In this document: piece after piece, positions 27,578-52,660 of the stretch
Layout: each line of letters starts with the position of its first letter
Numbering within the stretch: position 1 is the stretch's first letter
NCBI RefSeq assembly: GCF_039555335.1
Contig: NC_092642.1
Location: 17,885,208 to 17,949,207, forward strand
Origin: Amphiura filiformis
Taxonomy: Eukaryota; Echinodermata; Ophiuroidea; Amphilepidida; Amphiuridae
DNA length: 64,000 nucleotides
Reading direction: 5' to 3'
Notes under the pieces: model-generated
What the model saw: the letters and a program-made list of their open reading frames with translations, nothing else
Database searches by the model: none
Told to the model about the DNA's origin: nothing
Made by a program: the position numbers and the translations under genes

Positions 27578-27821
27578 TGAGTTTGTAAAGATTGCACAAT
27601 GTTGTCAGGCTTACTCATCAGGACACTAATTCTACTTAAGTAGAGTATTTACACGCCGACAAAAAGACCTTCGGTTCAATATGATGGAGGATAGAGATTT
27701 AATCTAAAAACCGATAATGTAAGTAGCTTGAGCTTCACGGTCAACTCGATATCATGTTAGATAACTATGTTTTTGCTGATCTTTGGTGTTGATTCTGTAT
27801 TCGCTACCTGCGACACAGACA

Positions 27822-29060: not shown

Positions 29061-29945
29061 CTCGAGTGCACCTTTTTGATATAGCACTTAAAGCGTCAAT
29101 AGTGATTACAATACTGATATTTTGAGCTGGAATTTAAGAACGAACGTTAGAAGGTATGTTTGAAATCAAATTATATAGGCACAAAAAGATACATTCATGT
29201 TTCAACTGTGAGAGACAAGCTGTAGCTAAATTTTCCTTACGTAATTAGTTTTGGAACTGTTTTTTTTTTTAATTCTTTTCTCTATTAAATTGTTTTCTTG
29301 TATCATCCCGCAGATCGCGCTCCTCTCACAATAGATTTGTTTTTAAATCAAATACATTTTCCTGTCCTGATTAGTTTTGGAACTGGAATTTAATAAATTG
29401 TTTTCTCTATTAATTGTTTTCTTGTCTCATCACGTAGATCGCGCTCTTCTCACAATAGAGGTGTTTTTAAATACATTGAATAAAAGATACATTTGTAATT
29501 TCTAATACCACTACTCGTATTATTAATAATGATCACATCTCAATTTCATTTTAATTTCAATTGTGGCGTATGTCAGGGTTGTCCGATACCGTCTCTGATC
29601 TTAAACGCTTGTGGAAATTAGTATCTCTGCTTTCGCAGATGATACCACCATTTTTAAAGGGCCCTGAATGTGTTGATACGGTTATGGATGTGTTTTCAAG
29701 ATCGTCTGGTCATTCCGTAAATTATGTAAACGTGGATTGGGTCCTTGGATATAATGATTTCGGGTATAGGAAAGGTTAACTCTCCAAGTATCTCAATAGA
29801 ACATCTGTCTTGTAATTAGGAAGATAAAATGAATATGATCGAGTTTTCAATCCGTGTATGGAAGATGCGAGGTCTATCAATGGTCGATAGATATTTGATC
29901 GTTATTTGAAATAGAGTGGAAGTCGTGAAGCGATGTTTTTCATGG
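29061..29945. other. 5' flank of GPCR 5 and spacer
   Basis: Starts with CTCGAGTGCA as in receptor 1. 29230-29330 and 29360-29460 are a degenerate direct repeat (ATTAGTTTTGGAACTG, TGTTTTCTTGT.TCATC.CG.AGATCGCGCTC). No gene. Confidence 0.5.
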
Positions 29946-30153
29946 ATTTAAATGTAGCTGGGAGGAAAAGCCAATGATCATTTGAAAATATTTTTGATAA
30001 TTTGTCAATTTGTCAAAGTTTGTATTATATCACGAATTTCAAAAAATTAAAATTATTTGATATCAGAAGGACATTCTTTGTATTCGGAATGTTATTTGAT
30101 ATGTCTAATGTGCTTTCAAGTCCCACAGAAAACGTTCATACCCCAGCCCTTAA
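29946..30153. mobile_element. TTAA MITE, 3' part only
   Basis: Begins inside the element at ATGTAGCTGGGAGGAAAAGCC and runs to ...CATACCCCAGCCCTTAA at 30153; the left half is missing. Confidence 0.85.
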
Positions 30154-33164: not shown

Positions 33165-36100
33165 TTTATTTATTTATTTATTTATTTTAATCATATTTAT
33201 CCAGGGTAGCCCAATTCAGCCAAATAGCTGGTCTAACATGGGGCCCTGCTACACATATATACAATAATTTAAAAGCAACAATTTTCAACATACAATTTAT
33301 ATAGTATATACAACTCTTAGACAAATTTAAAATACAAAAATACATACAATTTTTAAAGTAAATAAAAACACATCATTTACAAGTATGCACAAAATTTTAG
33401 GACTTGAATCTTTGTTTGAAAGTCTGCATATTTGTTGAGCTTCTTAATTCATTACTCAGCTTGTTCCAAACTTCAACCCCACTGTATGAAAAAGATGATT
33501 TAAAATATTCAGTATCATAACCATTCATGCAAGGCGGAAGAGCCAATACATTTGTCGCAGCTTGTCTGGTGTTAACATTATGCTTTTCGTGTATATAAGA
33601 AAACCTGTTGATTAGGTACTGTGGAGCCATATCGTTTAGACATTTAAACATTAACAAAGATTTGAAATACATTGCACGATTTGGAAGTGATTCCCATCCT
33701 AATATAGGAAACATTATATCAGAAGACGTAAGGTAATTGGCACGTAATATGATTCTTGCACATCGCTTCTGTAACACACTTAATTTACGCATATCTTCAT
33801 TGAAGCGACCAAACCACACTACACTACAATAGTCGAACTGCGGTTGAATAAGAGCTTTGTATAAAACATTAAGAGTGCGTACGTCAAGATATGTTTTAAG
33901 ACGTCTTAAGAGTCCTATTTTACAAAAAAGCTTCTGTATAACAGAGTTAACATGATTGTGCCAGAGTAATTTAGAATCTATCTTTACACCAAGACATTTG
34001 GCACTATGAACTCTTTCAAGTTGACGATCATCAATGGTAACTGAAAAAGCAGAACATTTATCATTACGTAACTTAGGCTCACTACCAATGAGCATAACGT
34101 TTGTCTTTTCAGCATTAAGAAACAACTTGTTAACATTTAACCATGCCTTAATTGCAGAAAGATCTTCAGTGAGCTTTTTAGAAATAATATCAGTATCAGT
34201 ACCATTTACAGACAGCGTGGTATCATCTGCGTACATGGATATTTTCCCATGTGATACTACATTTGGCATATCATTGATAAAAATGAGAAATAATAATGGG
34301 CCCAATATACTGCCTTGGGGAACACCAACTTTCATTTCAAGTGAATCCGAAACAATACCCTTAAAAGTAACTCTTTGCTTTCTACATGACAAATATGAAG
34401 CAAACCATTTAACTGTATCTTCAGATGCTCCAATATCGTGGAGCTTTCTTAGCAAAATATCATGATTTACGGTGTCGAACGCTTTTCTAAGGTCGATAAA
34501 GGCAACACCGGTCATTTTACCATTGTTGATGCCCGCAAGCCAATCGTCAACCATATCAACAAGAGCAGTTTCGGTAGAATGACCAGGACGAAAGCCTGAT
34601 TGATGAACATTCAAAATACCATTTCGATTTAAAAAGAGTAAACATGGTTATGCATAGCCCTTTCAATGATCTTACTTATTACAGGCAGGATGGAAATAGG
34701 CCTGTAATTATTGGTGTTATCAAGATCACCTCCTTTATGCAAAGGGATTACTTTGGCTTCTTTCCACAAAGTAGGAAAAATACCCTTTGACAAAGAGAGA
34801 TTCATAATATAAACTAAACTTTTTACAATGACTGGGCGAGCCAGTTTTAGTATCTTACAATTGACATCATCCAGACCTGTAGCCTTTTTATTGCTCATGG
34901 AGCGAATTTCTCTGTCAACAAAATCATATGAAATACATGGCATATTAAGAACAGGTTTAACTTGAAGATATTCGCATGTAGGTAACACATTAACATCAGC
35001 AATATTATTAACATTGTTTACATCATTAATTCTTTCATCACTTTCATTAAGTAAATTAGTTGCAACACTAGCAAAATGGCTGTTGAACACATTTGATATA
35101 TCAATGTCAGATGTAACTACATTATCTCCAAACCCAACAGATGATGGAGTTGGGGAAACTTTGGATGGAATGACCTTTTTAAGTGTTTGCCATAGCTTAC
35201 CAGAATCATTACAACTCTCATCTATTAGGCCCTTATAATAATTACATTTTGCAGATCTTATCATACTAGTAACTTGATTACGAACAAGTTTATAGGCTTT
35301 CCAATTACTTACACTATTAGAACGAGTTGCAATACGATGGAGGCTATCCCTATGATGCATACACTGCTTAATTTCCCTACCTAACCAAGGCGATGGAGTT
35401 GATTTAACACGCTTGGTCTTTTAGGTAAATGAAAGTTAACAACATCAAATAACATTGAATTCCACATGCTTACCGCATCATCAACATTGTCAATTTGTTC
35501 AATGTCACTCCATGGTTGTTCAGAGAGATCATTAATGAAACTTTGATCATTAAAACGTTTAAAACAGCGATAATCAATGGTTTTATGTTGACCCTTAATT
35601 GGCTTGGTTTTTCTTATAGCATAAATTAGATAGTGATCACTGATTGAAGTTTGAATCACACCACTTTCACTAAAAAGCTCATCCTTTGATGTAAAAAACA
35701 AATCAATAATCGTCTTGCTGTGAGATGTCACACGAGTTGGAAGGTTTATTAATTGCTGCAACTGATACAAATCACACACAAATTTTAAATCTCTAACTTG
35801 CTTACAGTTGACGTGAGGAGAAAAATCACAGTTAAAGTCGCCAAGTAAAATTAACTCTTTATCTTCATTTGCAGCTTTTGACAACATTGTACACAATATA
35901 TTTGAAAAATCATTATCATTTCCATCAGGATTATATGCAGCACATACAAGAAGTGTGTTAGTATGAGGTGGTGAAATTTCGACCCAAATACATTCAAGAG
36001 AATCATCACATAGATCATCCCTTCTCTTAAAATCGAACATACTATTAACTAAAATTGCCACACCACCGCCACCCCTATTACGATCTTTCCTGAGTATATT

Positions 36101-36640
36101 AAAACCATCAAAATTAACCTCGTTGTCACACACTGTGTGATCACAAAGTGTTTCATTCACACAAATGATGTCAAACGCATCACCACACATATATTTAAAC
36201 TCATCAATTTTACCAACAAGGCTTCTTATGTTAATATGGGCAAATTTAATACCTTTGGTCTTAAAATTAGGTACTTTGCCATTTTGAAGTTGCACATAAT
36301 CAGAACTCTCATCTGCAGCGGTAATGTCATTTATATTACAACTATCATGCATATTGTCATTAACATAAGTATCATTATTTGATGAAACAACATTTGATAA
36401 AACAACATAATTATTACTTTCATCTTCATTTACATGAGTACACAATGGTACGTCATTGGGTAAAACAACATTATTATCATCAACATTATTATCATCAACA
36501 AGATTATCATCAACATGATTATCAACAACAATATTATCCACGACATTATTATCATCAACATGACTATCAGCAACATATTTATCAACATATTTATCAATAA
36601 CATTAATATCAAGAACACTTAAAGTGTAATCAGAATGAAC
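33165..36640 (-). mobile_element. Jockey-group LINE, nearly intact (endonuclease + reverse transcriptase)
   Basis: One minus-strand polyprotein in three frame-shifted blocks. 36541-35381: an Asn/Asp/Val-rich leader then APE endonuclease (AHINIRSL, VNETLC, GGGGVAIL, GDFNCD, SDHYLI). 35360-34629: linker and RT start (NYRPISILPVISKI). 34614-33397: RT core (HQSGFRPGHST, AFIDLRKAFDTVNHDIL, GVPQGSILGPLLF, MYADDT) and C-terminal region (LGVKID, QFDYCSVVW, LQKRCARIIL). The breaks near 35410 and 34631 are single-base changes, the latter in a T-run. The 3' end is an (AAAT)n tail at about 33168-33190. The 5' end is uncertain. It sits antisense in the presumed first intron of the interrupted otopetrin-like gene. 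The clade (CR1/Rex1/Daphne-like) is not settled. Confidence 0.9.
36440..36610. repeat. ATTATCATCAACA microsatellite-like tract
   Basis: Imperfect trinucleotide/12-mer repeats encode the DNNVDD-rich start of the LINE ORF on the minus strand. The plus-strand ORF rich in His/Gln/Tyr is a shadow. Confidence 0.85.
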
Positions 36641-36850
36641 AATAGGACAACTGCATTTGTCCTGAAATTATTTAGTCAAGTGGATTTTCTAGCTATGTAC
36701 ATGACACAAATTATTAGTCTTTTTTCTAATTCATTTATCATGTCTGTGTATCACTACCTTTTTTAGCGCTTAGAAAGACAAAGTTTTCTATTTTTCGAAA
36801 TATAATATGGATAACAAGTGTTACCTTTCATAATTTGCGTAATTTTACAG

Positions 36851-37665
36851 AACGACACCGAATCTACGGCTCTATTGAAATCGACCAATGACCATGTACA
36901 CACCGGAAATGTTAGTCGATTACGCAATCGCCATGATGTAACCTTTGGAAATCATTTTGAATCTTGTACTCCTGGTTCCCCAAATATCAGCAGGGATATA
37001 GAAACGTCAGCTGAATCCGTAAGAAACCAAAGACCGCATTTTGATTGTGGACAGCCATCGAACAATAACAACGGTGATCCAAATTCAAAATTTAATCACA
37101 GTAGCTTAAACTCGTCAATGAGACTCTTATTTTTAATACTTGGATGTGGAATCACATTGTCTGTATTACCAATAATGGTCTCATGTAAGCACCATTCCCG
37201 TACATTTGTAAATCAGGTAAACGACATTGTGAATATCTCAAAGAACCTGTACGTCGTTTTTCTTAGTGTAATTTGGACTTATTTTGTACTGAAAATGAAA
37301 ACGTGGATCAAAAATGAACGGATCCTTATACTCGATGATGAGGAGCAAATCTGTGAAAGCAACAATCCTGACAAACATTCTGGAAGAAGCTCCTGTTCCT
37401 ATACAGTCATCATATTTGGTATTGGAGGTATTCTATACCTGACAGGCGAAAACATCGGCTACACGTATAAAGCTGTCTATACGGTTCGTATGTCTCAAAC
37501 ATACAATTACAACTTTCACGGTATATTTTCAATCGCTGTAGGCATAATTTACACAATATCGGTGATAGTACAATTGGTATTCTTTTCTAAGTACAGGGGC
37601 GCTGTATTGAGAAGTTGTGGCACATTTCACTACCTTATTGCATTTATGATCGGAGGTGAGCTCTG
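36851..37665 (+). pseudogene. otopetrin-like gene, 5' half of the interrupted exon
   Basis: The exon opens after the acceptor TTTTACAG at 36850 and reads NDTESTALLKST..., then membrane segments MRLLFLILGCGITLSVL, NLYVVFLSVIWTYFVL (followed by KMKTW, like GRTKTW in the intact paralogue), YTVIIFGIGGILYLTG and FSIAVGIIYTISVIVQLVFF, ending FHYLIAFMIGGEL (paralogue FHYSIALMIADKV). At 37666 an 8.9 kb Polinton-like element starts. The second half continues in the same frame at 46560 beyond the element and one 6-bp TSD copy. Apart from the insertion the exon has no stop, so disruption is recent and might be absent in other alleles. Otopetrins are proton-selective channels of the plasma membrane. Confidence 0.8.
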
Positions 37666-38107
37666 AGTAGTATAGGTATGGAGGTTTCCAGGAGGGTGAA
37701 TGAGCAAGTTTCAGGGGCAGATTTGGATATGCTTGGATATGGGACAAATCCTGCCCTCTGATTGGACAATCCCAATGGGGCAAGGGGTGAGTCATCAAAA
37801 TCCTGCCCTCTGATTGGACTGTTCAAGGTTATGGGGGCGTGGTTAGGGACACGAGCAGAAAATACAGGGGCAAGAGCAGGAACAGCAGGGGCAAGGGTTG
37901 GAAATCAGGGGCAGTAGCAGGTTGTTTATAGGATGGTAGTTAAGGACAACAGTATAAATATTTGTTTTTGTTAAGAATCCAAAACAACTGCAGTAGGTTA
38001 AAGTGAAATAAAATTTTCCGATATTTCAAGAGGTGTTACTAGTGTGTAAAGTACTGTAGGGTATTGTAACCTATGTTGTACTAACTTACGGGTATCTTGT
38101 TTGGTCG
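37666..38107. repeat. Polinton-like left TIR
   Basis: About 442 bp mirrored at 46112-46559. It differs from the right copy by a 6-base indel near 38078 and very few substitutions. It contains two CCTCTGATTGGAC boxes 52 bp apart, GGGGGCGTGG, and several GGGGCA units. Confidence 0.95.
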
Positions 38108-38444
38108 TTAAAACCTTATGAGGGCTATTTAATAAATTGTTACTAGCAGGTATAATGTTATATACCTATATTTTGTAGCGATACCTATTCTAAGCATAAA
38201 GAACTCAAACAAAACCACAAGAAATAAAGTAACATTACAAGTAGAAATATGTTCTGTATTTTAAAAATCTTTTATTATACTAATAGACTTTCAAAGGCTG
38301 TTTGTAAACATTACATGATATGTCTTGTACAGTATACATTTAATTAATAAGTATATTAATCATACTATTATACAGGTTGCGAATTATTTTATATGAATGT
38401 CACTTTACATTTTGAAATCATAATTTTAAGCACATTTCTCATGT

Positions 38445-38666
38445 TTACACATCATAACTTGCATCCAATCGGAAGCGACCTGAAATGTTAAGTCCCTTTT
38501 GGAAACGGAACATTACTCTAAATGGTTTAAAATCATATAGTTGTGTTAACTCTCCCCATTGTTTTTTGCTTGAAATGGTTATATCTCGACTGAAAGTGAT
38601 ATTAACATCATTTACAGTTGTTTTATGTGTTTTAACACTTAAAAAGTTTTGGTGTTGGTAAAGCAA
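38445..38666 (-). CDS. small unrecognised ORF in the Polinton-like element
   Basis: 73-residue ORF directly downstream of the acidic zinc-finger gene. Its last residues (SGRFRLDASYDV, stop) match the ORF at 62434-62682 (FGRFHLGASWDMCKHYKYAK), and the DNA lines up past the stop, which seems to have been created by a small deletion. It is probably a truncated copy of a gene found in related elements. Function unknown; it could be dead. Confidence 0.35.
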   Translation of the reverse strand: MLYQHQNFLSVKTHKTTVNDVNITFSRDITISSKKQWGELTQLYDFKPFRVMFRFQKGLNISGRFRLDASYDV

Positions 38667-38681
38667 AGTTTAGTTCCTCAT

Positions 38682-39398
38682 TTAAATGCTGTCTTCATCA
38701 TCAGCTTCCATTCCTTCATCAGCATCTTCATCGTACAGGAATAGACCATCGAATTTGGCTTGATATTTAGCCACCACTCTTTTGATAGCTTTGTTAATAT
38801 CCACGCCTTTGTCCATTTTGTCTTCAAGCTCTTCTGTGAGTTCTTGATACAGGTCATCATCTTTCAAATGGGCATAACTCCATAAAAATGTGGTAAAATG
38901 TTTTAGAAAGATACGTTTAACAGCCCACAAGGTCTTCGTGTAGGCTTTCTCACTGGCCTGCTCTTGGTCCAATCCCTCGGCAATGTACTTTTCATATTTT
39001 TTAGCTCTCATTTCTTCAGTGTCTTCCATGGCTTGTGCATACCATTCTCGATAGGTAGCGTTGTCTTCCAGCTCATCGCTTGTCTCTTCATCCGATGACT
39101 CCTCCTCAGATTCAGAATTATCTACTTCAGAATCTTTGGATTCGTTGTTGTCATTTACTTTTGAATCATCCAAGTCCATATCATCATCTTCTGAATCACC
39201 TTCCTCTTGGTCAGACTCTTCTTCATGATGTACATTTTTCTCATGTCGCCTAAGATCATATTGGCGAGTGAACCCTCTATCACACAGGGAACACTGGTGA
39301 GGTTTAGCAGCAAGAACATTCATGTTGACCCTTTGATGGTTTGTGCACAAATGACGAGAAGATGGACTGACATTAGCATAAATTAACTCATGATTCAA
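38682..39398 (-). CDS. acidic C2H2 zinc-finger protein of the Polinton-like element
   Basis: Up to 238 residues. One C2H2 finger (HQCSLCDRGFTRQYDLRRHEKNVH, about residues 33-56 from the far start) is followed by a long Asp/Glu/Ser stretch (about 60-115) and a helical C-terminal half (NATYREWYAQAMEDTEEM.., LDQEQASEKAYTKTLWAVKRIFLKHF) ending with a second acidic patch. The finger resembles the third finger of the PolB gene's first exon (TFTRAYNFKRHQRTVH), so the two are likely related by duplication. The ATG at 39323 (MNVLAAK) is a more likely start than 39398, because a TATA box lies only about 30 bp upstream of the latter. Such a protein could act as a DNA-binding or histone-like/transcription factor of the element. 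That role is inference. Confidence 0.75.
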   Translation of the reverse strand: MNHELIYANVSPSSRHLCTNHQRVNMNVLAAKPHQCSLCDRGFTRQYDLRRHEKNVHHEEESDQEEGDSEDDDMDLDDSKVNDNNESKDSEVDNSESEEESSDEETSDELEDNATYREWYAQAMEDTEEMRAKKYEKYIAEGLDQEQASEKAYTKTLWAVKRIFLKHFTTFLWSYAHLKDDDLYQELTEELEDKMDKGVDINKAIKRVVAKYQAKFDGLFLYDEDADEGMEADDEDSI

Positions 39399-39424
39399 GC
39401 GATGATAAAACCCATTTTGATGGA

Positions 39425-39433
39425 CTATTTATA
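39425..39433 (-). promoter_or_regulatory. TATA box (TATAAATAG)
   Basis: On the minus strand TATAAATAG lies upstream of the acidic zinc-finger gene and immediately downstream of the 31-bp repeat array. A transcription start about 30 bp on would fall near 39400, favouring the ATG at 39323. Confidence 0.55.
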
Positions 39434-39443
39434 ATATGGTGCA

Positions 39444-39718
39444 ATGTTTTTGAACGCACTATCGACGCTGCGTAACGCTTTTGAACGCACTATCGACGCT
39501 GCGTAACGCTTTTGAACGCATTATCAACGCTGCGTAACGCTTTTGAACGCACTACAAACGCTGCGTAACGCTTTTGAACGCACTATCGACGCTGCGTAAC
39601 GCTTTTGAACTCACTACAAACGCCGCACAACGCTTTTCGACAACTACTGATACTACACAACACATTTTGACGGCGTAACGCTTTTTAAGCACTAAGTACG
39701 CGGCTTAACGCATTTTAG
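39444..39718. repeat. 31-bp tandem repeat array
   Basis: TTTTGAACG(C/T)A recurs at 39448, 39479, 39510, 39541, 39572 and 39603, with a variant at 39634, exactly 31 bp apart; each unit ends in CGCTGCGTAACGC. Beyond 39660 the copies degenerate and spacing is lost. The array lies between the PolB gene's 3' end and the TATA box of the zinc-finger gene. Confidence 0.95.
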
Positions 39719-39893
39719 GTTGCAGACGGCGCATTTGCTCATTCTACCCAGCTACTTGAGATTTTCATTGATTTTATTAACAGATTATTTTTCTCTTTTA
39801 AAATGTACAACATTTGATATAGTATACATTTACATTTAATTAGAAGTATTAGGCCTACAGATTTAAAAATTATAAAAGTTAGTTTTCATTTCA

Positions 39894-42800
39894 TCATATG
39901 TCTAAATATGTTGTAGACACCCCATCTTCTAGGACTTTTCGCTTTGGGTAGAAGAAGGTGAAAGCATCTCTTGTTTGGGTGTATGTGAAGATACTGTTAT
40001 CTTTCACTCTGAAACCACGATTAACACCACTTTGCGCCTTCTTCTCTGTCAATACCTGAAGATAGAGATCTTTGTTAATGATGTTATTATTTTTGTTTAC
40101 ACCTTTGCAGCTGAATTTATCTTTAGGCCCAAAACAATAATATGTTTTGCTACAGAGGGCGATCATACCGTCTCCTTCCCACTCCACTTTAAAAAGACCA
40201 GGGGTTCGCTTATCGTAATGTCTATGTTCTTCAGTATCAGTCCTGGGAATCCAGTTTGGCTTGTCGTGTTGAAACTGGTCTTTAAGGTCATCTTTCACAA
40301 GATCATCAAGGTGTTCTGCAGAAATAGCTATATATGCGGAGTCTGTGTCCATTTCTATGTATTGGTAGTCTGATCGATCAATGTATTTATCTAAGAAGTC
40401 AAAATAAAATTGTAGCATGCGTAGCTTTGCATATTGATACACAAAGAATCCTATTTGAATTGGTAAGTCTTCCTTGATGTATTTTTTTGCCATGATCACC
40501 TCATGACAATCACCAGTAATTTCATTGATATCACGGAAGAGATGTTCATTGATTCTTTTCCTGGCCTCTATAGTGTCTGCAATTTTGACATTTGTGTGTC
40601 TCTCCTTATTGGTGATAGTCTTTCCATAAGAAGAGTTGCCGATAAGTTTCATGGTGTCAGCAATTATTGTTTTGGAAGAATCCATGTCCCCAGCTCTGCG
40701 GGCTTCTGATACAACATTGCCAAACTCTTTGAAACAGGCCTTTGGCAAATATTCAATCACCTGATATATTTGTGTAACCTCTAAACCATGCTGAAGATAC
40801 CACTTCAAGAGAGGAGTTGAAAGCAGGATCTTTTCTCCAAACATGCTTCCAATTAAACTTCTTCTTGGAGTAGACATGATGTTGTTGTCTTTGGCAAACT
40901 TCGCCATGAAGGGACCTATGTCACTCATGGAGATGTCAACATTTTTGAAGATAGGTGGCATTTCTTCAAAATACGGTTTGAGACGTTCTGGCACACGAAT
41001 ATCGCATTCAATACATCCAAATAACTTGTCTTGAAGAACCCCCTGTATGATTTCATCTTGAGTCAGAGTGGTTTTCTTGTAGAGAGGTGGTCTAACAGAG
41101 TGGACAAAAGCTTGTAGCTCTTTGTTGGATCTTTTTAGTCTGGTAAATTCACATTCCCACATCTCCACAAAAGCATATCCCTCATTTTCTATATACTGTT
41201 TCTTCTCCAAGGTCCTCTTGTAACGTTCCTTCATTTCTGGTGTTTCATGTTGAGGATTCATTGCACACTTGTGCCCATGAAATCTACATCCTTGCATTTC
41301 GAAGACTTGGTTGGTCTCAGTACAAAAGCCATCAACTGGAAGCATACGTGGCCCGATTCGCTTTTCAGTGTTGTTGCCATTGTGTCTAATGTTGATTCCT
41401 CGAGTGTATGCCTCCCATCTCAACCATTCTTGAGCTACCATTGAAATTCTTGTGTGTTGTTCTCGCTTGAACCCAGTTTCCTGACGTCTTCTGATATACA
41501 TTCCTGTCGGCATGTCTTGTGTAATGGCCCAAAGATATAATGCGTTAGCATCATAGCCCACTATCTTCTTACACAACTTGCCACCACGAATCTGTGTTTT
41601 TTCAATTTCATGATACCTGTGAAAGATGATCGACGGGCCGCCTACTAGGTTTTCTTTAAAGAGCTGGTGAAGGTCTTTGTTAGTCTCATCAAACAAGGTG
41701 AATGTGGCTTCAGGACTCGTCTTAAATAGGTACTTCATTGTTAGGCCTGGAACTGACATCCCATCCTTAAAGGTATCTATACCTCTCTCCCTGTAGAAAG
41801 AATCCATTTTGTCAAGTGCTTCAATGAAAGGTTCTACGTCTAGATTGTTGTACCACACCAGAAAATCGTGCATGGTAACCATACCATTCTCTTTCCAAAC
41901 TTGCTGACAGTATTGGTAGTCATCATCTGATATATTCGTACCTTTGAGTCGACTAAAGAATGCATCTTTCGGTGGTAGCTGTGTTGTATCTAACTTTTCT
42001 ATCGAATCCAACCATTCATAAGGAAATATCCCCTTCTGGAGTTGACAGTTATAAGCCTTCAGGAACTTATCGTAGCTGGAGCCTGGAGCTAGATAGTTCG
42101 TAACATCCAGAAACTTGAAACAGTTGGTCTTGATACACATATGATTATGGTTTCGTTTCACAATGAATTGAATCTTGTCATTGTTCTGAAGGAAGCTATA
42201 GATGTATGGTTTGATGACATTGGTGTCATACTTTCCGCTGTTGAACCCTATCACCGGGAGTTCAGTTATGTAACTTTCCAAGCGAGTTTTTAGTTTGACA
42301 AAATGTTTGCGTTGCTTTATACCATTGTCAGGTTTTGAAGTATCTTCCTCAGGAGTCAGTGCTTCTATTCTTCTATCTAATTCTTTGAAAATGGGTTGGT
42401 ACAATTCATCCAACAAAGCTGTGCTATGCTGGCTTATATCTAGCAAATAATTCATCATTTGGTTGACCAACTCCTGAGAATTACCATCGGATACAAAGCA
42501 TTTTGGCACCTCAAAGTTAGGAATGTTGCTGCATACAGATACGCTGACTGGAACATGTTGGGCTTCCCATGTCAGTTTCTCTGATGTCTGTGAAGCAGTA
42601 GACTTGTCTAAGAAACACTCGAAGTCATATACAGCTCTGTAGGGAAAGAACTTCATGTGCTCTGGAATACTGAAACCTTCATCCTCAAGCAGTGCAAAGA
42701 TTGTAGGTGGGCTAATGTAATATCCTCCTGGGTAGATATGTCTTGTTCCATTTGCGTCACACGTAGCCTCGTGGCGAGTCAATTGCCATCCTGACTTCCA

Positions 42801-43373
42801 CAATTTGTGACATTTCTTACATTTGAAGGATTTGCTGTACTGGGCAAGATTTGTTATGTAACTGAAGTGGTTTTCATATTTGTTGATATACATAGTACTA
42901 TCATACTTGTTAACACTACGCTGCACCAGTCGGGCTACTACATTCAGAGATCCACATCTATCATTTTTCATATCATGATAGTATGACTTGGTTGCTTTAC
43001 CATTACCTTTCTCTACATCTTCCTCTTGTATCTCTCCTTCACGATCCTTCTCTATCATAACGACACTATCTGCTGCTTCGTTTACATCATCTCCATAGTC
43101 TCCCATCATAAACTCGTCCTCAAAAGCGTCAGCATCACCATCAGAGCGTGATTCAATAAGCTCATAAACAATAATATTGACTTTGAAAAGCTCTTCCAAT
43201 GTGCTCAGCTCTGAGAGTTTCACCCCTTTGAACTTCTTGACTGGTTCTTGTGTGTACTCATGATATAACTTCTTCGTTAATGTCTCCAATCCCTTCCGAT
43301 GACAATTCCGATGAAGAGCCAAGCATCTGAAGAAGCATAAATTGTCACTATATCCCTCTTGTTTTTGTTTGGG
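39894..43373 (-). CDS. type-B DNA polymerase with OTU-like and Vsr-like modules (main exon)
   Basis: This is the replicative polymerase of the element. The frame is open from 43373 to the stop at 39894; the conserved start of the region lies before position 43322, which is not an ATG. Numbering from 43322: an OTU-like signature (DNLCFFRC just upstream of residue 1, and NHFSYI at 151-156 in the place of the OTU His), a Cys/His finger (CKKC 168-171, H184, C188), Exo I DFE (233-235), Exo II NSGKYD (361-366), Pol A YDANALYL (590-597), a Vsr-like nuclease module (VDGF 663-666, E675, GCRFHGH 678-684, MWECEF 721-726), Pol B GNSSYGK (895-901) and Pol C MDTDSAYI (991-998), then SKTYY..KGV. The upstream coding exon is in a different frame (see 43277-43995). 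Confidence 0.92.
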   Translation of the reverse strand, partial: PKQKQEGYSDNLCFFRCLALHRNCHRKGLETLTKKLYHEYTQEPVKKFKGVKLSELSTLEELFKVNIIVYELIESRSDGDADAFEDEFMMGDYGDDVNEAADSVVMIEKDREGEIQEEDVEKGNGKATKSYYHDMKNDRCGSLNVVARLVQRSVNKYDSTMYINKYENHFSYITNLAQYSKSFKCKKCHKLWKSGWQLTRHEATCDANGTRHIYPGGYYISPPTIFALLEDEGFSIPEHMKFFPYRAVYDFECFLDKSTASQTSEKLTWEAQHVPVSVSVCSNIPNFEVPKCFVSDGNSQELVNQMMNYLLDISQHSTALLDELYQPIFKELDRRIEALTPEEDTSKPDNGIKQRKHFVKLKTRLESYITELPVIGFNSGKYDTNVIKPYIYSFLQNNDKIQFIVKRNHNHMCIKTNCFKFLDVTNYLAPGSSYDKFLKAYNCQLQKGIFPYEWLDSIEKLDTTQLPPKDAFFSRLKGTNISDDDYQYCQQVWKENGMVTMHDFLVWYNNLDVEPFIEALDKMDSFYRERGIDTFKDGMSVPGLTMKYLFKTSPEATFTLFDETNKDLHQLFKENLVGGPSIIFHRYHEIEKTQIRGGKLCKKIVGYDANALYLWAITQDMPTGMYIRRRQETGFKREQHTRISMVAQEWLRWEAYTRGINIRHNGNNTEKRIGPRMLPVDGFCTETNQVFEMQGCRFHGHKCAMNPQHETPEMKERYKRTLEKKQYIENEGYAFVEMWECEFTRLKRSNKELQAFVHSVRPPLYKKTTLTQDEIIQGVLQDKLFGCIECDIRVPERLKPYFEEMPPIFKNVDISMSDIGPFMAKFAKDNNIMSTPRRSLIGSMFGEKILLSTPLLKWYLQHGLEVTQIYQVIEYLPKACFKEFGNVVSEARRAGDMDSSKTIIADTMKLIGNSSYGKTITNKERHTNVKIADTIEARKRINEHLFRDINEITGDCHEVIMAKKYIKEDLPIQIGFFVYQYAKLRMLQFYFDFLDKYIDRSDYQYIEMDTDSAYIAISAEHLDDLVKDDLKDQFQHDKPNWIPRTDTEEHRHYDKRTPGLFKVEWEGDGMIALCSKTYYCFGPKDKFSCKGVNKNNNIINKDLYLQVLTEKKAQSGVNRGFRVKDNSIFTYTQTRDAFTFFYPKRKVLEDGVSTTYLDI

Positions 43374-43995
43374 TCATTGATCAAAGCCAGGACTGCTTGA
43401 TTCTCTTGAATGTAGTTGGGCAATTGTACATCCCTTGCACCTATGGGATGATCTGGGATTCTATATACATACAGTGTCATGTTTGTTATGAGATCTACTA
43501 CCCACTTAGAATTAGGTCTCTCTGCTTTTGCATATTCCAAGGGGTCTCTTTTCAGAAGTTCTGCCAAAAATTTCATGAAATCTGATCTGTTTTGAACAAG
43601 CATGGGCGTGTTTAACAATCTGTTATTTGAGGAAGCATAATGATATCTAAGCTTTCCATCTTCGTTATTCTTCAGTACAAAACCATATGCAACATTGATT
43701 TTAAATGCTGTTTTTTGCTTATCAAACACACCTAGTGCTATCTCACTCAAATAATCCAAATCTAGAGATAATAGTCTAAAGTTATACATGTCTCTAATTC
43801 TTCCTTTTGTTTTAAAGTCTTTGATTTTCTGCCACTGTTTGCGGTAAATATCTTGTAACACTTCATCATCCCTCAGATGTTGAAACAAATCCTCAGTCGG
43901 TAGTTCTTCATCAGCATCAGTTGTTTCAAGTCGTTGTCGCTTTGCTGGTTGACTTTCCTCTTGGCTTGCATCTTTGCCGCTTTGAGCCAATGTTT
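43277..43995 (-). CDS. second coding exon of the zinc-finger/PolB gene
   Basis: It begins after a clean acceptor (polypyrimidine..TCTCACAG) at 43996 and joins in phase to the zinc-finger exon. It carries a basic NLS-like PAKRQRLE, then a region of about 190 residues conserved in character but not recognised (DMYNFRLLSLDLDYL, YHYASSNNRLL, YRIPDHPIGARDVQLPNYI). The frame runs out at 43277, but the polymerase reading frame begins to make sense in another frame from about 43373. The two blocks differ by a single-base offset at an A-rich run around 43361-43373, so one mutation, an assembly error or ribosomal frameshifting separates them. I see no canonical slippery heptamer. Confidence 0.75.
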
Positions 43996-45067
43996 CTGTG
44001 AGACAGAAATGAAAAAATGTGTACAGACTATAATTATGTATGATCAATATCAACATGCATGGGTCAGTGGAAGTGATTATAAACATATATAATATAGCAA
44101 ATATTTATACTAGCACAGTTGCTATGTATCTTTGCACACTCAAACTAAATATATTTGTAAAATAAAGAATTCAAACTTTAATAAAAACTCAAAAGAAGAT
44201 ATATTGCCAAAATTCTAAACTTCTTCCTTTTTTCATTTCTTTTTTCTTTATCGTTTAAAATATTGCAGGATATCATGAGTATGCTATTACTATATACCTT
44301 ATTGATCAGTTATGATAAATTGTGTGTGTGTGTATTAAATAAATTGTATAGCTTCTCAGGTCAGCGATTGATCAATATTGTGTAAAAATAACTTCCAGCT
44401 ACAGATCTGGGAAAGCCCTGTGCTATATTGACCATAGAGCCATGATAGATCTATTATGTCAATTGACCAACCTTACTAAATAAAAGGTCTTACTATTGAT
44501 CATTTCATCAAATAACTTTAACAACTACTATATCTAAGTGGGTGCAGGTAGATGGATCACCACATTTCACTCTTGAAAAGGTGCTTCATAAACATGGGGA
44601 ATTATTTGTGTGGAATTACTGGTCAAATTTGTCTCTGGATTTATCTTTGATAAAAAAATTGTAATTCATTTCTTTGTCAGGAACAATAATTTAACTGTAC
44701 AAAACATTATCTCAGTTGAATTGTGTGTTCTTTTATAGAATGAGTTATTATTATCTTCATTATGTGTATTCTACCACGTCTAGCTTCTTGAATCTTCTAG
44801 CATTATGGCGAGTTTTAAAAGCTATGCATTGCATAGACACACTTGTGTGGGGGTGTATGGGGGTGTGGATATGCATAGTTTGATGTTTGAGTGCGTATTT
44901 GTTTATAATGGTGTTTGTCACAGGGTTTGTTGTTGAAGTTGTTGTGTTGCTGTTTCTGTGTAGGGTGTGTATTTGACTGTCAAACAGACCATTGAACTGA
45001 GTTCAAACTCTTAATATAAACTAAATCAATCGAGTTATAATTAAACATACGAGAGTTCGAAACTTAC
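43996..45067 (-). other. intron of the zinc-finger/PolB gene
   Basis: GTAAGT...CTCACAG on the minus strand; AT-rich, with a GT-rich patch near 44845-44870. No ORF of interest. Confidence 0.7.
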
Positions 45068-45416
45068 CTTCTGTATGTTCTGTAGGGAAATTCTGCTTGG
45101 GAAGTCTTGCACCACAATCTTCCGTATGGGTATGAACAGTCCGTTGGTGACGCTTAAAATTATAGGCACGTGTAAAGGTCTTGTCACAAACATAACATTG
45201 TAGAGGCTCCTTGTGCCTCACATTAATAATTTCACCTCTGTCATCAAAATGAGATTTCCGATGTGCTTTTAAATTATCAACTCGTGAAAATGATTTCGTG
45301 CAAATGTCACAAACGAAGGATACTCTCACTTGGCTATGCTGGGTACGTAAATGACGTTTCAAATGATAGTTGCGATTAAATGTAGCATTACAGAAGGTAC
45401 ATTGGTGCTTTGCCAT
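45068..45416 (-). CDS. first exon of the zinc-finger/PolB gene: three C2H2 fingers
   Basis: Starts at the ATG at 45416 and encodes three consecutive C2H2 fingers (HQCTFCNATFNRNYHLKRH, FVCDICTKSFSRVDNLKAH, LQCYVCDKTFTRAYNFKRH) within about 100 residues. It ends at a textbook donor GAAG|GTAAGT in phase 1, and the exon at 43995 starts with the two bases needed to complete the codon. The intron is 1,072 bp. The fingers would give the polymerase a sequence-specific or TIR-binding DNA contact; that role is inferred. Confidence 0.8.
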
Positions 45417-46111
45417 GATTTTTAACTTTAGTCTCTTAAGATTGGCATGAACTTGCTGGATACGAAGTATCTTAATCAGGTAGTTTATGTTGTAACTTGA
45501 ATTAAAGCAAGCTCTAAGGCTGATTGGATCTTGGTAAGATCAGGAGAGTAAATGACCACCAGTCTTAATCAGACGCTCTTATATAGATAGGATCTGTATT
45601 GATCTAGACAAGTCCAGACATGTCTCCATTACATCATTGCTATTTTGGGCAATATCCATAACATCATTGCTATTTTTGGAATCAATTCTTTTGTCTTAAA
45701 ACAAGTCTAAACAAGTTCAAACTAGAAATTTACATGACGTCCTTGAGCTTAAGTAAATAAGAACGAGTCGTTGTCAAAATTCAATAAATATTATTGGAGA
45801 AGATGGTAAACAGAGTAATTTATTGATGATTGATCTTAATATTGATTGGAAGTCCTTGGTAGCATAATGTTCTGTTTTGTAAACAAAATATTGATACCTG
45901 TTGTTGTCAAGGACAGCAAGTATTGACTTTTTGCCTGAAGCTTTTCAGTAATGAGCTAGAATGAACTATTTATATTAAGATTTATGACAAGTTGAGAGTA
46001 CTATTACTTTCTAATGTTTTTGTTGTTTGGGTCTATTTTATAATATGTTTCAGTAGCATTTAGCCCATTATAATAGGCACGATGTACTCACTATAGGTGT
46101 AATTTATTAAA
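45417..46111. other. promoter-side spacer of the Polinton-like element
   Basis: Lies between the zinc-finger/PolB ATG and the right TIR. It contains a short direct repeat (TACATCATTGCTATTTT.GG / AACATCATTGCTATTTTTGG, 45630-45680). No gene. Confidence 0.5.
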
Positions 46112-46559
46112 TGACCAAACAAGATACCCGTAAGTTAGTATAAGTATAACATAGGTTACAATACCCTACAGTACTTTACACACTAGTAACACCTCTTGAA
46201 ATATCGGAAAATTTTATTTCACTTTAACCTACTGCAGTTGTTTTGGATTCTTAACAAAAACAAATATTTATACTGTTGTCCTTAACTACCATCCTATAAA
46301 CAACCTGCTACTGCCCCTGATTTCCAACCCTTGCCCCTGCTGTTCCTGCTCTTGCCCCTGTATTTTCTGCTCGTGTCCCTAACCACGCCCCCATAACCTT
46401 GAACAGTCCAATCAGAGGGCAGGATTTTGATGACTCACCCCTTGCCCCATTGGGATTGTCCAATCAGAGGGCAGGATTTGTCCCATATCCAAGCATATCC
46501 AAATCTGCCCCTGAAACTTGCTCATTCACCCTCCTGGAAACCTCCATACCTATACTACT
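46112..46559. repeat. Polinton-like right TIR
   Basis: Mirror of the left TIR. Read on the minus strand it carries the two CCTCTGATTGGAC boxes and a GGGCGTGG box pointing towards the zinc-finger/PolB gene. A plus-strand ORF crosses it into the otopetrin half, creating an artificial N-terminus (MNSPIRGQDFDDSPL..). Confidence 0.95.
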
Positions 46560-47613
46560 GCTCTGGACCTGGTTATCCCTTACATTTAGACCAATTTATG
46601 TTCTATCGGAAGACTGTGATCAGGAACCAGTCAATTCCTCCTACAAAAACGAAACTCTCTTGCAGAGAATCATTGAAAACACTAATAGCTTTCTCGAGCC
46701 ATTCCTGATTGAATTTTTAACCATTTGCATCGGAATTTTACTAAATCTTTGGAATTCTATGGACACCCACAAAACTATCACGAAAGAGGCCAACAGCATC
46801 AATGACCGCAGAAATACCACTTTCAACGACGAAGCCTCAAATGACAAGGATTACTGCGCCGTAAACGTAGATTTGGAGCAAGTTGAGGAAAGGAGTAATG
46901 TCGTTCGTCGAAGTAAAATCGTCACTACTTTGCTTATCGTTTTATCAGTGGTTCTATCATCCGGGTATGTTATGATGTACGTCATTTTCAGCGGTCATTT
47001 TGGGAAAGTCTTTGACATATCATACGAACATGTCATCTACGTCTACTTTGCCTACAGATTGGCACTTTTTCTTCCTTTGGCAATAGTCATCTTTCCCACT
47101 TTTAAAGCAACTTCACAATACCGGATGAGCTTAACGTCTCTGTCAACTCAGGCACTTGTACTGGTATTAGCCAATGTCGTAAACTATATCTTCTCCTTCT
47201 TGCACCTTTTTGTATCTTTGGTGGTTTTAAGTTTTCCTGATCCATCTAGTAGTATAAGTGACGGAGAATCAACATATCTATTCATTTCTGCTTGTGCTTA
47301 CATTTTTGAAAATTGGAGTCACACGTTTTTCATACTAGCGATGAGCAGACTTCACAAATCTGGTGTACCAATTTCTAACTTTCAAAAGTATGGTTTGCTT
47401 TATTCGGCTAATATCAATTTGTCGCAGTGGGCAGTTCAGAGTTTAAGCCACACATGGGCGACACACTATATGCCTAATCTTGTTCCAGGATTTTCGTATG
47501 TTTTTAGCAATATTACAACACGATTGATAATATTGATAGCGTTCCCTATAATGGATTTTTATCGATTTCATGCAGCTGTCATAGCTTATGAAATTCTCCA
47601 GAACTCGAAATAA
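46560..47613 (+). pseudogene. otopetrin-like gene, 3' half of the interrupted exon
   Basis: Resumes after the element with WTWLSLTF (intact paralogue WVWITVTL), then FLEPFLIEFLTICIGILLNLWN (the otopetrin-type P-F-x-x-E segment), a hydrophilic loop, and membrane segments at about 46930-47000, 47030-47100, 47150-47250, 47270-47350 and 47390-47560. It ends DFYRFHAAVIAYEILQNSK, matching the family's FyRfHsa..l.Ei ending. No internal stop. Translation can only reach it from within the TIR at this locus, so a normal channel is not made from this allele. Confidence 0.85.
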
Positions 47614-47799: not shown

Positions 47800-48345
47800 G
47801 CCGTTTTAAAACGTTTTGTATGAAAAAATGTTATTGTAAACTATTCTTACAAACATTTTTGCCAAATATTGTGTCAATACTAAAATAACATTATGTTAAA
47901 ATGTTTGAACCCAGAAAACACAGAAATGTTCTTAAAATGTTTTTTCAAAACCTTTTAATAACATTTAAATGTCGGTTATACAAAGGTCATGAAAACGTTT
48001 TTAAAACGTTATTGAAAATATTTTGGGCAAACATTTTTCGCAAAATATTTTTTCAACCCCAAAATAACATTCTGTTTAGAATGTTTTGTATCAAGTTTTC
48101 AAGAATGTTTTTGGAATGTTATTAAAACGTTTTATACCCTTTATATAACCCGACATTGTAACGTTTTCTGTAAAACATTTTTGTTTGCTGAGCAGTAGAT
48201 TATCAAAAATGTTTTTTAAGGTTACGAAAACGTTTTATACTCTTAATATACCCTTTATTTAATCCGACATTTAAACGTTTTCTGACAACCTTTCCTAATC
48301 TTTTGCGAATGATGTCGAAAACGTTTTGTGTTTGCTGGGATACTA
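47800..48345. repeat. AACGTTTT-rich element with GTTTGCTGG end
   Basis: Dense degenerate copies of AAAACGTTTT and AACATTTTT units, with CCCGACATT..AACGTTTTCTG blocks and a GTGTTTGCTGGGA end near 48328. It is the inverse-oriented relative of 52851-53525. Confidence 0.8.
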
Positions 48346-48409
48346 CTGAATAAGACTTGTAAACGGCATCCACTTCTCCAATTATTGGCCAGCCCATCCA
48401 TTATGATAA

Positions 48410-48566
48410 GGATAATGAACTGAGTGCAATGCATTAGTCAAGATAATCGCACGCGCCGTGGAGTTATTGCATTTAGCTCGAGAGCCGATAGGCTCGAGAG
48501 CTAAATGCAATAACTCCATGGCAAGTGCGATTATCTTGACGAATCATTTGCACGAGTACATTATCC
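48410..48566. repeat. palindrome, arms about 75 bp
   Basis: GTCAAGATAATCGCAC..GAGTTATTGCATTTAGCTCG is mirrored by CGAGAGCTAAATGCAATAAC..GTGCGATTATCTTGAC. Arms meet at GAGAGCCGATAGGCTCGAG. Outer parts (GATAATGAACT / AGTACATTATC) pair imperfectly. Confidence 0.9.
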
Positions 48567-51079
48567 GTCATATACTGAGTGTATTAAAACAATAGGCAAT
48601 ATTAATTGCTGCATTCATTATATTGGTTTGAATATTAGGTAAAATATCTTAAATTTTAAAAACACCGTCAGGTCATTGACCAGGTAGTATTTACTAGTAA
48701 CTGGTCAAGAAAATCAATCACACTGTATAAGTTAGCTATCAATGGTATCGATTGCGCCATACGTCATACTTTAGTAACTTATTCACGCATGGTTTGTAAC
48801 CAATTGACTTTATGTTGTGATCATTTAATATCGTGGTTCCGAACACAGAGAGCACTGAAGCAGTTGACCTGGGAACAATCGATTTTGACGTCCCACTACA
48901 TGTAGTACTACGGTGAATGGAGATGAGAGAATAAACTTATATATCAATATCAACTGGACTTTCTAGTTGTACAATTTGAACTTTAAAATCTACTAATATT
49001 GTTAAAACACACGACAGTGAAATTTTTCAATTTGTTCAGCATTACAAAGCATGATCATGATATTATACGCTAGTGTGTGTTTCCCGGGCGTGTTTATGTT
49101 ATCTTAGATATAGGCCTACATGTAATTCATTTGTAAAATGCTGAATATTTTGTAATGGTGTCATCTTGTATAATTATGGTCCACCTGTTTTTAGCCCTTT
49201 TAATTAATAGAAGCTCGATTATTCTCATTTGATGTTTGATTTATTTGAGTTCATTAATCATAATTTATGGCAATGATAGTTGCAAAATAGAACAGTGTGT
49301 AACCTATGATTTACAAAGTGCGCATGAAAAAATACCATACCCTATAACTATTTTAACACCACAGAATGTATATTCGTACTTTTTTGGTGGTATATATATC
49401 GAACATAGTTATATAAGTTATATAGTAATGCGAAAGTAGTATTTCTAGTATTTGAGCGTGCACGTATTATCTAAAATCTATTGTTTAGCGTGCGGGTTTT
49501 AGATAATGTATTGTTTAGCGTGCAGGTTTATATAAACCTGCACGCGAAGTAGTTCGCGAAAATAATGCACGGGAGAAGAATACATAACGATGAATAGAAA
49601 CGGGCACTAGAAGTATATGACACGATATTGGATAGGCAAAAGACAAAATCCTATCTTTTATTCTCTGAATATTAACCAACATCGTCCTCAACGTAATTTC
49701 AAAAGGACTGGAAGAAAGTGATAGAAAAGTTGGACTTATGTCTTTTTCCATTTAAAAACCACATTCCATTTAATGTTTGAAATTGAGCAGTTTTGGACAT
49801 TCAAAATTCAAATTTTTCATAAAATGTTGAAGATGTTTTAATTTTAAGCAACATTTCTCAAAAGGGGTAATTTTGTGCTAAATTCAACTGGATTTCAACA
49901 TCTTGCAGGTTAATTTTTGATCAACGTTTTTAATAAATTAAAAAATACCAGAATAAATACAGCTGGATGGTCAATGTAGTCCACTGGGGTGTGGTTTTCA
50001 AATGGAATAACCCGATACAGATTTCTTCATAACCACACTCTGATACCGAAACTTACTGTATAGGTAGAATAAACAGTTATTGCTACGCATACCTTTGTTA
50101 TCTTCAATGTAAGTATAGTTTCATATCCTATATCAGGTTTTTAGGTTTGGATGTAAAAGGGAAAGTATAACAAGACATACACACTGACATACTCCCTATT
50201 CCAGAAAAATACAGCACTATTTTTTTTATTATTATTTTGATTCAAAAAATATTTTCCTGCTTAGACAAATGAAACATTGGCCAAATCTTAAAATGTGACT
50301 TTCATTGCCAGTTATAGAACTAACTAAATGATTAGGATTCAGTTATGTCTCATATGGCAAAATATTTCTTTTAATCCTAAAAATTTAGTGTTGTATTTTT
50401 CTGGAAAATGGAGTAGTGCTAGGAGTCAAAAACTAATGGTCTCCTGTCCAGTGGCACAGTTCATTCCTCCTCAAAATATAACCTCAAATTTTTGAACACA
50501 ATGCATTCCAACGTCATTCAACGAATGTATAAATACATATTGGTTTAAGAACTGTGTACATATAATAATTACATTGTGAGACCTTAGAACATGTTTCAAT
50601 CGAGGTTTCAGTTTACGTAGCTCTAGTGGCTAGGAGTGTGTGAACTTATAATGGTATGTTTGCCGTCAACGAAGACGTTTGTGTCTTTTTAAATTGACTA
50701 TTCTAAATTAAGAAGTTAAATACTTTCAACAAATTTGAAAAATTATGTGTCTCTAGAACATTAACACCATTTTTTGACGACAATTATCATTTCAACCTTG
50801 AACATAGCTTTTGTGTTCAACTTCGGAATATCACTCTTTCATAAATTTATAGATATCAAACTGAATTAGAGTACGAGGTAATTTTCTTGATTTTTTTGTC
50901 AAAAAAGGCATTTTTATTATGGTAGATATCAACGATCACTGAAAATGAGACAACACCGCTCAAAACTAATTCATGACGATTGTTCTGTCATTATGTCAGC
51001 TTTTTGTTCATATTTCATCAAGACAAAAGAGAAAAAGTTATATTTATGAAAAGAAAATCCCAAACACTCTTCTGAAAGA
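48567..51079. other. non-coding spacer
   Basis: No gene recognised. A perfect 26-bp palindrome (CGTGCAGGTTTAT/ATAAACCTGCACG) lies at 49519-49544, preceded by two further GTTTAGCGTGC.GGTTT half-copies (49480-49525). Confidence 0.45.
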
Positions 51080-51395
51080 TTCGTCTACCATATGTGTACA
51101 TTCATATCAAAACGATGCACTTGTCGGCTGCTACATGTGTCTCATTTCAAATGCTAGCTAGGAATAAATACTAGACTCATCTCAAGTGGAGGTCACTTCA
51201 AATCATCCCCAAGTCACATGGTTTAGGAATACTGAGAGCATTCCTTAACCATGTGATGTGGTAATTATTTGAAGAGAACTCCCCTTGAGATGAGTCTGGT
51301 TTATATTTTTAGCTATTATGTGAAATGAGACACATGTAGCAGCTGACAAGTGCATCATTTTGATGTGGATGTACACATATTTTACTGATCTTGAT
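51080..51395. repeat. inverted repeat, arms about 145 bp
   Basis: ATGCACTTGTCGGCTGCTACATG..TGAGACTCATCTCAAG-like blocks at the left are mirrored on the right (CTTGAGATGAGTCT.., GAGACACATGTAGCAGC). The turn is at GGAATACTGAGAGCATTCC near 51230. There are several mismatches and small indels. Confidence 0.85.
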
Positions 51396-52660
51396 CAGAT
51401 TCCAGCCGAACAATCACGTAAAGAGCCAGCTGGAAATGAAATGTACATGTCTTGCAAATGGCTGTGTTTAGCGTTGGAGCTATTTTGTGCTTTGATGACA
51501 ATGTTCAGTGTCGCCGACAATGGGGTGTAACGCGCTTTACCCCAAAGTCCGAAACAGGGTGACAAACAGAAAATTACTAGTAATAATAGGCATGTTCTTC
51601 AGAACTGGTGAAATATTACTTGGTTTGAGGTTAAAACCCATTGGGTGTCGACACCTTAAACCAACCTAACATCAAACTAGTGGAGTACCGGGTGGTGTCA
51701 TAAAAAATTCAAGTAACTTTAATACGGACTGTTAATGCCCTCTATAGTTTGCCCTAGCCATGCAGCCTATATATGTATATGAATGCTGGACAAAATCGAA
51801 CTGTTAATGCATTTAACTTTGTTTCTGTAAATCTGTGTTGTGGTCCTTATCCCCGACTGTCGTTTCTCCTTTTAGACTTATTTACCTCCGTAATTCACCC
51901 CTGGCAATTCTGGCTATATAAAGCAAGAATATAAGCAAAATTGACGGTATTACCAAGTTTGAAGTCCATATCCCTTGGTGGGTTAACATTTTTAACAACT
52001 CAAATGGTGGATCCACGATTAGCTTAAGTCATTTGTGTGTACCGGTTGAACAACACTTTACAGGACGAGTGTACATTACCATCCTACCTACTCATTCTAC
52101 CTACTATTTGTAAAAATATTTACTTTCAGACATATATGTGAATAAACTTGAACTTGAACTTGAACGTACTTTTTAGTCCTTTTATATTGTGTTTCTATTC
52201 CATTGTATTCCTCTTGTTCAATATGAATTAGCTATATAATGGCTACAACAATTAACTGTCCAATTAACGTAAGGGGAAGTAATTAATGGATTTTTATGAA
52301 GGATTGCGTCTGATTGTCGTCTGATTTGTTCATATAACAGCTAATATATTTGCTTTAAGATTATTTAACGTTATTTTTTGCCGTCAGTTCCTCCAAATTA
52401 TTAGTCATTTTATGTTGCTTTATAGTTTTGGCCAGGTTACAAATATAATGGTTAATGGTTTTCTTCGATAATAAAATTTTGCTTTCAATTCCTAGTTTAG
52501 AATCTAGTCTCATTACGTAGCTGAAAAGACCACTAATAACACAATATTGAGCTTTCAAACTTACAAATTTAGAATCTTGTCAGTTCTCCGTTCAAGGAAA
52601 CACGCTATTATTATTTTCCGATATTCCGATATCGTACATAGGCTAACTCCATCAGTTGAA
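51396..52660. other. non-coding spacer, 5' of the intact otopetrin-like gene
   Basis: No gene or repeat boundary recognised. Promoter elements of the following gene may lie near its end but none could be named. Confidence 0.4.

Follow-up and report, generated by a model that had tools for sequence, protein, structure and literature searches.

An inserted element of 8,894 bp lies at positions 37666-46559 of a 64,000-nucleotide stretch of Amphiura filiformis DNA (contig NC_092642.1; the whole stretch is called here the window). Its extent is established by a pair of terminal inverted repeats (TIRs) and by a target-site duplication (TSD), and all of its genes, located on the minus strand, are reported in Table 1 together with the other features. 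By its polymerase and its ends the element is an incomplete Polinton (Maverick). Since integrase, ATPase, protease and capsid genes were sought and not found, it is considered a non-autonomous derivative, rather than an autonomous member of the group, probably moving as a Polinton does.

Table 1. Position of the element, of its target exon and of the features predicted within it; the last column indicates how each feature was recognised.
Feature	Position in window	Strand	Basis
Host otopetrin-like exon, 5' part, broken by the element	36818..37665	+	open reading frame and empty-site reading
Left TSD, GCTCTG	37660..37665		sequence comparison of flanks
Left TIR, tip AGTAGT, outer 417 nt equal to right arm	37666..38112	+	inverted-repeat match
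CCAAT-box-like words in left TIR	37761, 37772, 37813	+	motif reading
TATAAA in left TIR	37953	+	motif reading
Accessory gene, 213 aa: one C2H2 finger, acidic linker, helical C-terminal domain	38682..39323	-	open reading frame, alignment, model
31-bp tandem repeats, ~6 copies, between polymerase and acidic genes	39448..39670		repeat scan
Polymerase, main piece: vOTU-like domain, 3'-5' exonuclease motifs, palm A/B/C	39894..43373	-	motifs, model, fold search
VSR-endonuclease-like insertion, core motif VDG...GCxxHGHxC...MWECE	41139..41348	-	alignment motif; Pfam Vsr in relatives
Frame break, overlap of two polymerase frames	43277..43373	-	frames of open reading frames
Heptamer CCCAAAC where main polymerase frame opens	43373-43367	-	heptamer scan
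Polymerase, N-terminal piece, TP/D1 region by position	43277..43995	-	tblastn to contig L001; TP naming after PMC11071308
Predicted intron GTAAGT...TTTCTGTCTCACAG, phases compatible	43996..45067	-	splice-site reading and arithmetic
Polymerase exon 1, three C2H2 zinc fingers, GTAAGT donor at end	45068..45416	-	open reading frame, Pfam, splice reading
Right TIR, tip ACTACT	46107..46559	-	inverted-repeat match
Right TSD, GCTCTG	46560..46565		sequence comparison of flanks
Host otopetrin-like exon, 3' part	46566..47613	+	Pfam Otopetrin, E 1.2e-06

The TIR arms are fully complementary across 417 nt (37666-38082 and 46143-46559, 100%); once extended, to 447 and 453 nt respectively, they match at 98%. 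The element starts and ends with (AGT)2...(ACT)2, the tips being AGTAGTATAGG...CCTATACTACT, and GCTCTG is found on both flanks: TIRs, AG...CT ends and a 6-bp TSD, as expected for a Polinton/Maverick, are all present. The terminal 19-mer, searched with up to 3 mismatches, has two matches in 64 kb, both at the element tips (0.00 expected); neither this search nor the TIR comparison revealed a second copy of the element in the window, and no match to the 19-mer was found in IMG/VR. CCAAT-like words and a TATAAA are present in both TIRs. Each TIR possibly contains a putative inward promoter, the right one being placed where it would drive the zinc-finger polymerase gene.

When the element is removed along with one TSD copy, the two parts of the host exon are joined into a single otopetrin-like open frame of 632 aa. 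The restored frame aligns, through the junction, with a second otopetrin-like gene, located at 54080-55762 in the window (E 4e-45, identity 24%), for which no Pfam match is found at 1e-4. Because the TIRs are identical, the TSD is present and the host frame is restored over 632 aa at the empty site, the element is a precise, recent insertion in a host coding exon, although the identity of the TIRs may date its last replication only. A preliminary description of this DNA had reported the AG...CT ends, the near-identical TIRs and the TSD GCTCTG, and had called the copy young; the present analysis supports both statements.

The polymerase, as far as its motifs tell, has the layout of the protein-primed polymerases of group I Polintons: zinc fingers, a terminal protein (TP) region, a vOTU domain, an exonuclease, a VSR-like insertion and a palm. 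Motifs which we take to be those of the exonuclease (FDFE-type, GFNSGKYD, YNNxD), of the palm (GYDANALY, KLIGNSSYGK, MDTDSAY) and of the vOTU domain (a Cys and a His; in the window protein, DNLCFFRC and HFSYI) are conserved in alignments of 30 and 73 sequences, and so is the VSR-like stretch. Polinton polymerases are described as being organised in the order TP-vOTU-polymerase (PMC11071308), while the VSR insertion is described as dividing group I from group II Mavericks, and as standard in group I polymerases (PMC10328495). In the window protein the insertion, of about 140 aa in group I, is recognised by its motif. Taken together, the domains correspond to a family B polymerase of the protein-primed type, in which TP and vOTU regions are both present, the TP being assigned by position and by similarity to the contig L001, described below, and the reading frame being broken. 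The AlphaFold2 model (mean pLDDT 86.9, pTM 0.84) has an adintovirus polymerase as its top viral fold match (E 3.7e-39) and the phi29 polymerase as its top PDB match (E 1.9e-12), which, together with the exonuclease and palm motifs, bears out the type-B polymerase of the preliminary description. Six of the 8 best fold matches are labelled adintovirus or densovirus/bidensovirus, the other two MELD virus and parvo-like virus; in contrast to the element, these records are viruses, and identity at ranks 1-8 is 14-16%.

Sequence databases were less informative: no Pfam family is matched by the window polymerase itself, and nothing convincing was found in PHROGs or NCBIfam. Pfam recognises DNA_pol_B_2 in 13 of 30 aligned members and Vsr in 3 of 30 (best E 0.0043), the window protein not being among the latter. 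A PDB sequence search with the single protein gave two weak matches, and the best 60 of the 207 matches of the profile search are zinc-finger proteins. Relatives of the polymerase are numerous (1,857 found, the best 120 listed). A tree was built by a quick method, with midpoint root, from 117 rows: 115 of the 120 listed hits (at least 1,000 aa), the window protein and L001. The window polymerase falls in a 12-row clade (support 100) in which five rows are named, each of them from an echinoderm: Amphiura, Lytechinus, Apostichopus and Holothuria (two).

A scan of genome contigs with the polymerase matched 56 stretches, and two loci, L001 and L002, encode relatives. L001 (QGON01000029.1, 11.8 kb, left end missing) is filed under an endosymbiont metagenome-assembled genome (MAG) of the tubeworm Escarpia laminata; L002 (QGON01000009.1, 3.6 kb), a second such Polinton end, is also filed under a tubeworm-symbiont MAG. 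Both are incomplete contigs, and both are presumably tubeworm host DNA. Since they carry animal-type Polinton genes, the bacterial MAG holding them may be contaminated with host DNA. The L001 polymerase has the same succession of domains, from zinc fingers to palm, carries a VSR-like motif, and is 44% identical to that of the window (residues 8-1159). In L001, unlike in the element, it is followed by an Adeno_IVa2-type ATPase (Pfam E 8.5e-05), an integrase with rve (3.5e-13) and chromodomain (3.2e-08), a match to adenovirus-type protease (7.4e-04, under the Pfam cut-off, 19.7 vs 21.3 bits) and open reading frames (ORFs) resembling major capsid protein (MCP) and penton. The latter have no Pfam match and are assigned from their location and from the similarity of L001 to L002, their names being presumed from general knowledge of capsid genes. 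From the polymerase stop to the protease stop, 6.7 kb are covered. These core genes lie on the same strand as the polymerase in L001, and on the opposite strand in L002. Because the L001 relative adjoins genes for an ATPase, an rve-chromo integrase, capsid-like proteins and a protease, polymerases of the window family do occur in complete Polintons.

In the element, the polymerase is encoded by several ORFs. The zinc-finger ORF starts at 45416 and contains, at 45067, a GTAAGT donor, for which a polypyrimidine-AG acceptor is available with its end at 43996. The first exon measures 349 nt, that is 116 codons plus 1, and the phase matches across the predicted GT-AG intron (45067-43996). Because several relatives have fingers and polymerase fused in one protein, the zinc-finger and polymerase ORFs are read as one predicted two-exon gene. 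Of the preliminary description, which had counted three coding units on one strand, the strand is retained and the count is not: with an intron and a frame break taken into account, the element most likely has two genes.

The frame break separates the main polymerase ORF (43373-39894) from the N-terminal one (44104-43277), located in a different frame, whose product shares 37.5% identity with the equivalent region of the L001 polymerase (208 columns). The break is more likely due to a lesion or to an error of assembly. The tract is A-rich, a kind of sequence commonly affected by indels or by assembly errors, and in the relatives the frame is generally continuous: a vOTU motif is found in 70 of the best 120 of the 1,857 relatives, the other 50 not being judgeable, and in 68 of these it is preceded, in the same frame, by 45 residues or more, against 4 and 26 in the remaining two. 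That a programmed -1 shift still allows the element to make the full polymerase appears improbable, even if C CCA AAC, the only canonical -1 heptamer of the N-terminal frame (274 codon positions), is located exactly where the second frame opens (1 in 1,158 positions for the main polymerase frame, 0 in 247 for the acidic frame). The RNA 3' of the heptamer shows no unusual degree of structure (z -1.12), an equally good fold being obtained for 26 of 200 shuffles. The heptamer itself (43367-43373, minus strand) is probably there by chance, or as part of an indel-prone tract.

The second gene encodes an acidic protein, whose ATG at 39323 is nearly invariant in the family alignment, and which ends at 38682. 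The C-terminus is helical and conserved throughout the family; the model of the protein is of low confidence (pLDDT 58), and Pfam finds a zinc finger and weak matches, with no recognised enzyme domain. Nine relatives were found by single-sequence search and 34 by profile search: the family is defined as 30 of the 34, the last four being discounted as generic zinc-finger proteins. Identity to the window protein ranges from 30 to 87%. Two of the 30 are named, one from Patiria miniata (30% identity) and one from Amphiura filiformis itself (48%, over 52% of the query), the latter in a gene model also containing PF00240, presumably the ubiquitin family. Similarities to the reference contigs are slight: with hhalign, the family matches, among L001 proteins, the zinc-finger region of the polymerase alone (probability 51%), and the best tblastn matches, one to the zinc fingers of L001 (E 8e-05) and one to L002 (E 0.008, 35 residues), were not counted. 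A scan of IMG/VR with the family gave 51 stretches, none confirmed by tblastn.

Genes of the Polinton core were looked for by several methods. By tblastn, nine non-polymerase proteins of L001 and four of L002 were compared with the whole window: the best E was 0.33. By phmmer, ten L001 proteins were compared with the 115 ORFs (at least 25 aa) outside the polymerase: for the integrase, ATPase, MCP, protease and penton probes the best E was 0.75, while a small L001 ORF of no assigned function gave 0.015. The polymerase probe gave 4.5e-05 and 0.0098, with what are, by position, the two zinc-finger ORFs. As a control, the same search on L002 worked for MCP (4e-105), protease (2e-69) and penton, with further values of 1e-37 and 2e-31; the integrase and ATPase probes are without such a control, because L002 gave no match to either. 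In Pfam, ten further ORFs showed no convincing match, and no other recombinase was recognised in the ORFs tested. The rve integrase, described as one of the four Polinton core genes (PMC3671162), was hence found neither by tblastn in the whole window, nor by Pfam in the ten ORFs, nor by phmmer in the 115; packaging ATPase, adenovirus-type protease and major and minor capsid proteins were not found by tblastn or phmmer. For the probes used, this agrees with the preliminary description, which had remarked on the lack of these same genes. Scans of IMG/VR matched 1 stretch with the polymerase, 42 with its profile, 3 with the L001 MCP and 2 with the L001 integrase, and tblastn confirmed none of them. 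The array of 31-bp repeats sits at the place that, judging from L001, the missing core module would occupy after the polymerase.

Compared with intact vertebrate Mavericks, the element is alike in its ends and different in its content. The commonest end motif reported for them, 5'-(AGT)2//(ACT)2-3' with 6-bp TSDs, is matched exactly, and its TIRs are near their mean of 402 +/- 276 bp (PMC8097293). With the group I elements it further shares the protein-primed type of polymerase with a VSR-like insertion. In contrast, it is 8.9 kb long, against 12.7-24.6 kb (mean 16.9 +/- 1.7 kb), has no detectable integrase, ATPase, capsid or protease, and contains a predicted intron, whereas the ORFs of intact vertebrate Mavericks are described as intronless (PMC8097293). 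Capsid-less members are described in the wider polinton network, namely transpovirons and linear plasmids (PMC11071308, PMC3671162). The transpoviron polymerase, differently from the present one, is described as helicase-fused and exonuclease-free (PMC11071308). Occurrence as insertions with TIRs and TSDs is not known for linear plasmids.

The element is thus interpreted, with moderate confidence, as a recent non-autonomous group I (VSR-bearing) Polinton, most likely an internal-deletion derivative, inserted in trans. An internal deletion would have removed the ATPase-integrase-capsid-protease module, leaving the gene for the zinc fingers-TP-vOTU-exonuclease-VSR-polymerase protein and one terminal accessory gene. 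Copying would proceed by protein priming from the element ends, where the terminal AGTAGT would let the primer slip back by one repeat; slip-back on short terminal repeats occurs in the protein-primed copying of adenovirus and phi29. The rve integrase of a complete Maverick would then act on the ends in trans, creating the 6-bp duplication. A deletion is favoured because the element and the L001 core stretch add up to 15.6 kb (8.9 + 6.7), inside the published range of Maverick sizes. The acidic gene, as an accessory left after deletion, also fits, because most intact vertebrate Mavericks are described as having accessory regions on the flanks of the core (PMC8097293). Several observations weigh against this interpretation: neither a complete partner nor a sister copy was found in the 64-kb window, no deletion scar is recognisable in the element, L001, filed under a tubeworm-symbiont MAG, is outside the echinoderm clade of the window polymerase, and searches of L001 and L002, both incomplete, for the acidic gene gave nothing beyond zinc-finger-level or weak matches. 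Because of this last result, the gene is not tied to any complete Polinton: it may be a dedicated partner of the polymerase, or an accessory of complete echinoderm Polintons.

The former possibility is part of a different interpretation, in our judgement tentative: a distinct, stable echinoderm lineage of two-gene Polintons, lacking capsid and integrase, with its own protein-primed copying, an acidic partner and a borrowed integrase. The acidic family is indeed conserved, with 30 relatives, both named ones from echinoderms, and for 21 of the 30 the longest contig is 2.3 kb or less, as for single-gene transcripts or short metagenome pieces; tblastn and phmmer revealed no remnants of the core genes, and the polymerase belongs to the well supported clade in which the named rows are echinoderm. 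Yet, among the relatives found, none combines the two genes with the lack of an integrase, the acidic gene may be an accessory of complete echinoderm Polintons, and the polymerase frame is broken in the window copy. Integrase-less two-gene Polintons do not appear among the literature matches listed (for several searches, the best 20), Kapitonov and Jurka 2006 and Pritham 2007 not having been consulted. Non-autonomous Polintons are recorded in Repbase. Overall, the distinct lineage is no more probable than a simple internal deletion.

Both interpretations require an integrase in trans. This had been proposed in the preliminary description, and fits, because ends and TSD are canonical for integrase-bearing Mavericks. 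The same description had offered, as an alternative, a different joining enzyme, which would be the VSR-like domain of the polymerase or the acidic zinc-finger protein, nicking or joining the ends. The VSR-like stretch retains Asp, His and Cys of the kind presumably used by Vsr, and is the sole nuclease-like domain noticed apart from the exonuclease. Such an activity is nonetheless very improbable: the insertion is described as standard in group I Mavericks (PMC10328495), the L001 polymerase has the same motif next to an rve integrase, the ends and TSD match those of integrase-bearing Mavericks (PMC8097293), and the acidic protein has neither a recognised enzyme domain nor a confident model.

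Other repeated sequences and genes are found in the window. An AT-rich region of about 5.5 kb between the two otopetrin-like genes (47825-53368) is bounded by inverted arms that measure about 520 nt and share 92% identity (477/521); it was considered as a second Polinton copy and rejected, having different ends, no similarity to the TIRs and a longest ORF of 134 aa, and is likely an unrelated non-autonomous inverted-repeat element. A non-long terminal repeat retrotransposon, with frame-split endonuclease and reverse transcriptase ORFs, adjoins the target exon (33397-36541, minus strand). Four tandem genes for rhodopsin-type G protein-coupled receptors (Pfam 7tm_1) are located at 13776-29087, on the minus strand; many imperfect inverted copies of a repeat unit of roughly 70-150 nt are found at 24763-27589 and 30015-30132.

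Finally, the locus provides a case in which a coding exon of the host was recently interrupted by a Polinton retaining a replication gene, with no detectable integration or virion genes. If the lineage interpretation were true, the element would represent a self-copying, not self-inserting, non-viral branch of Polintons, in which copying is separated from joining, and the requirement in trans, namely whose integrase acts on the AGTAGT ends, would be open to direct test. If, instead, it is a one-off deletion, it would be an example of complete Polintons possibly mobilising defective copies.

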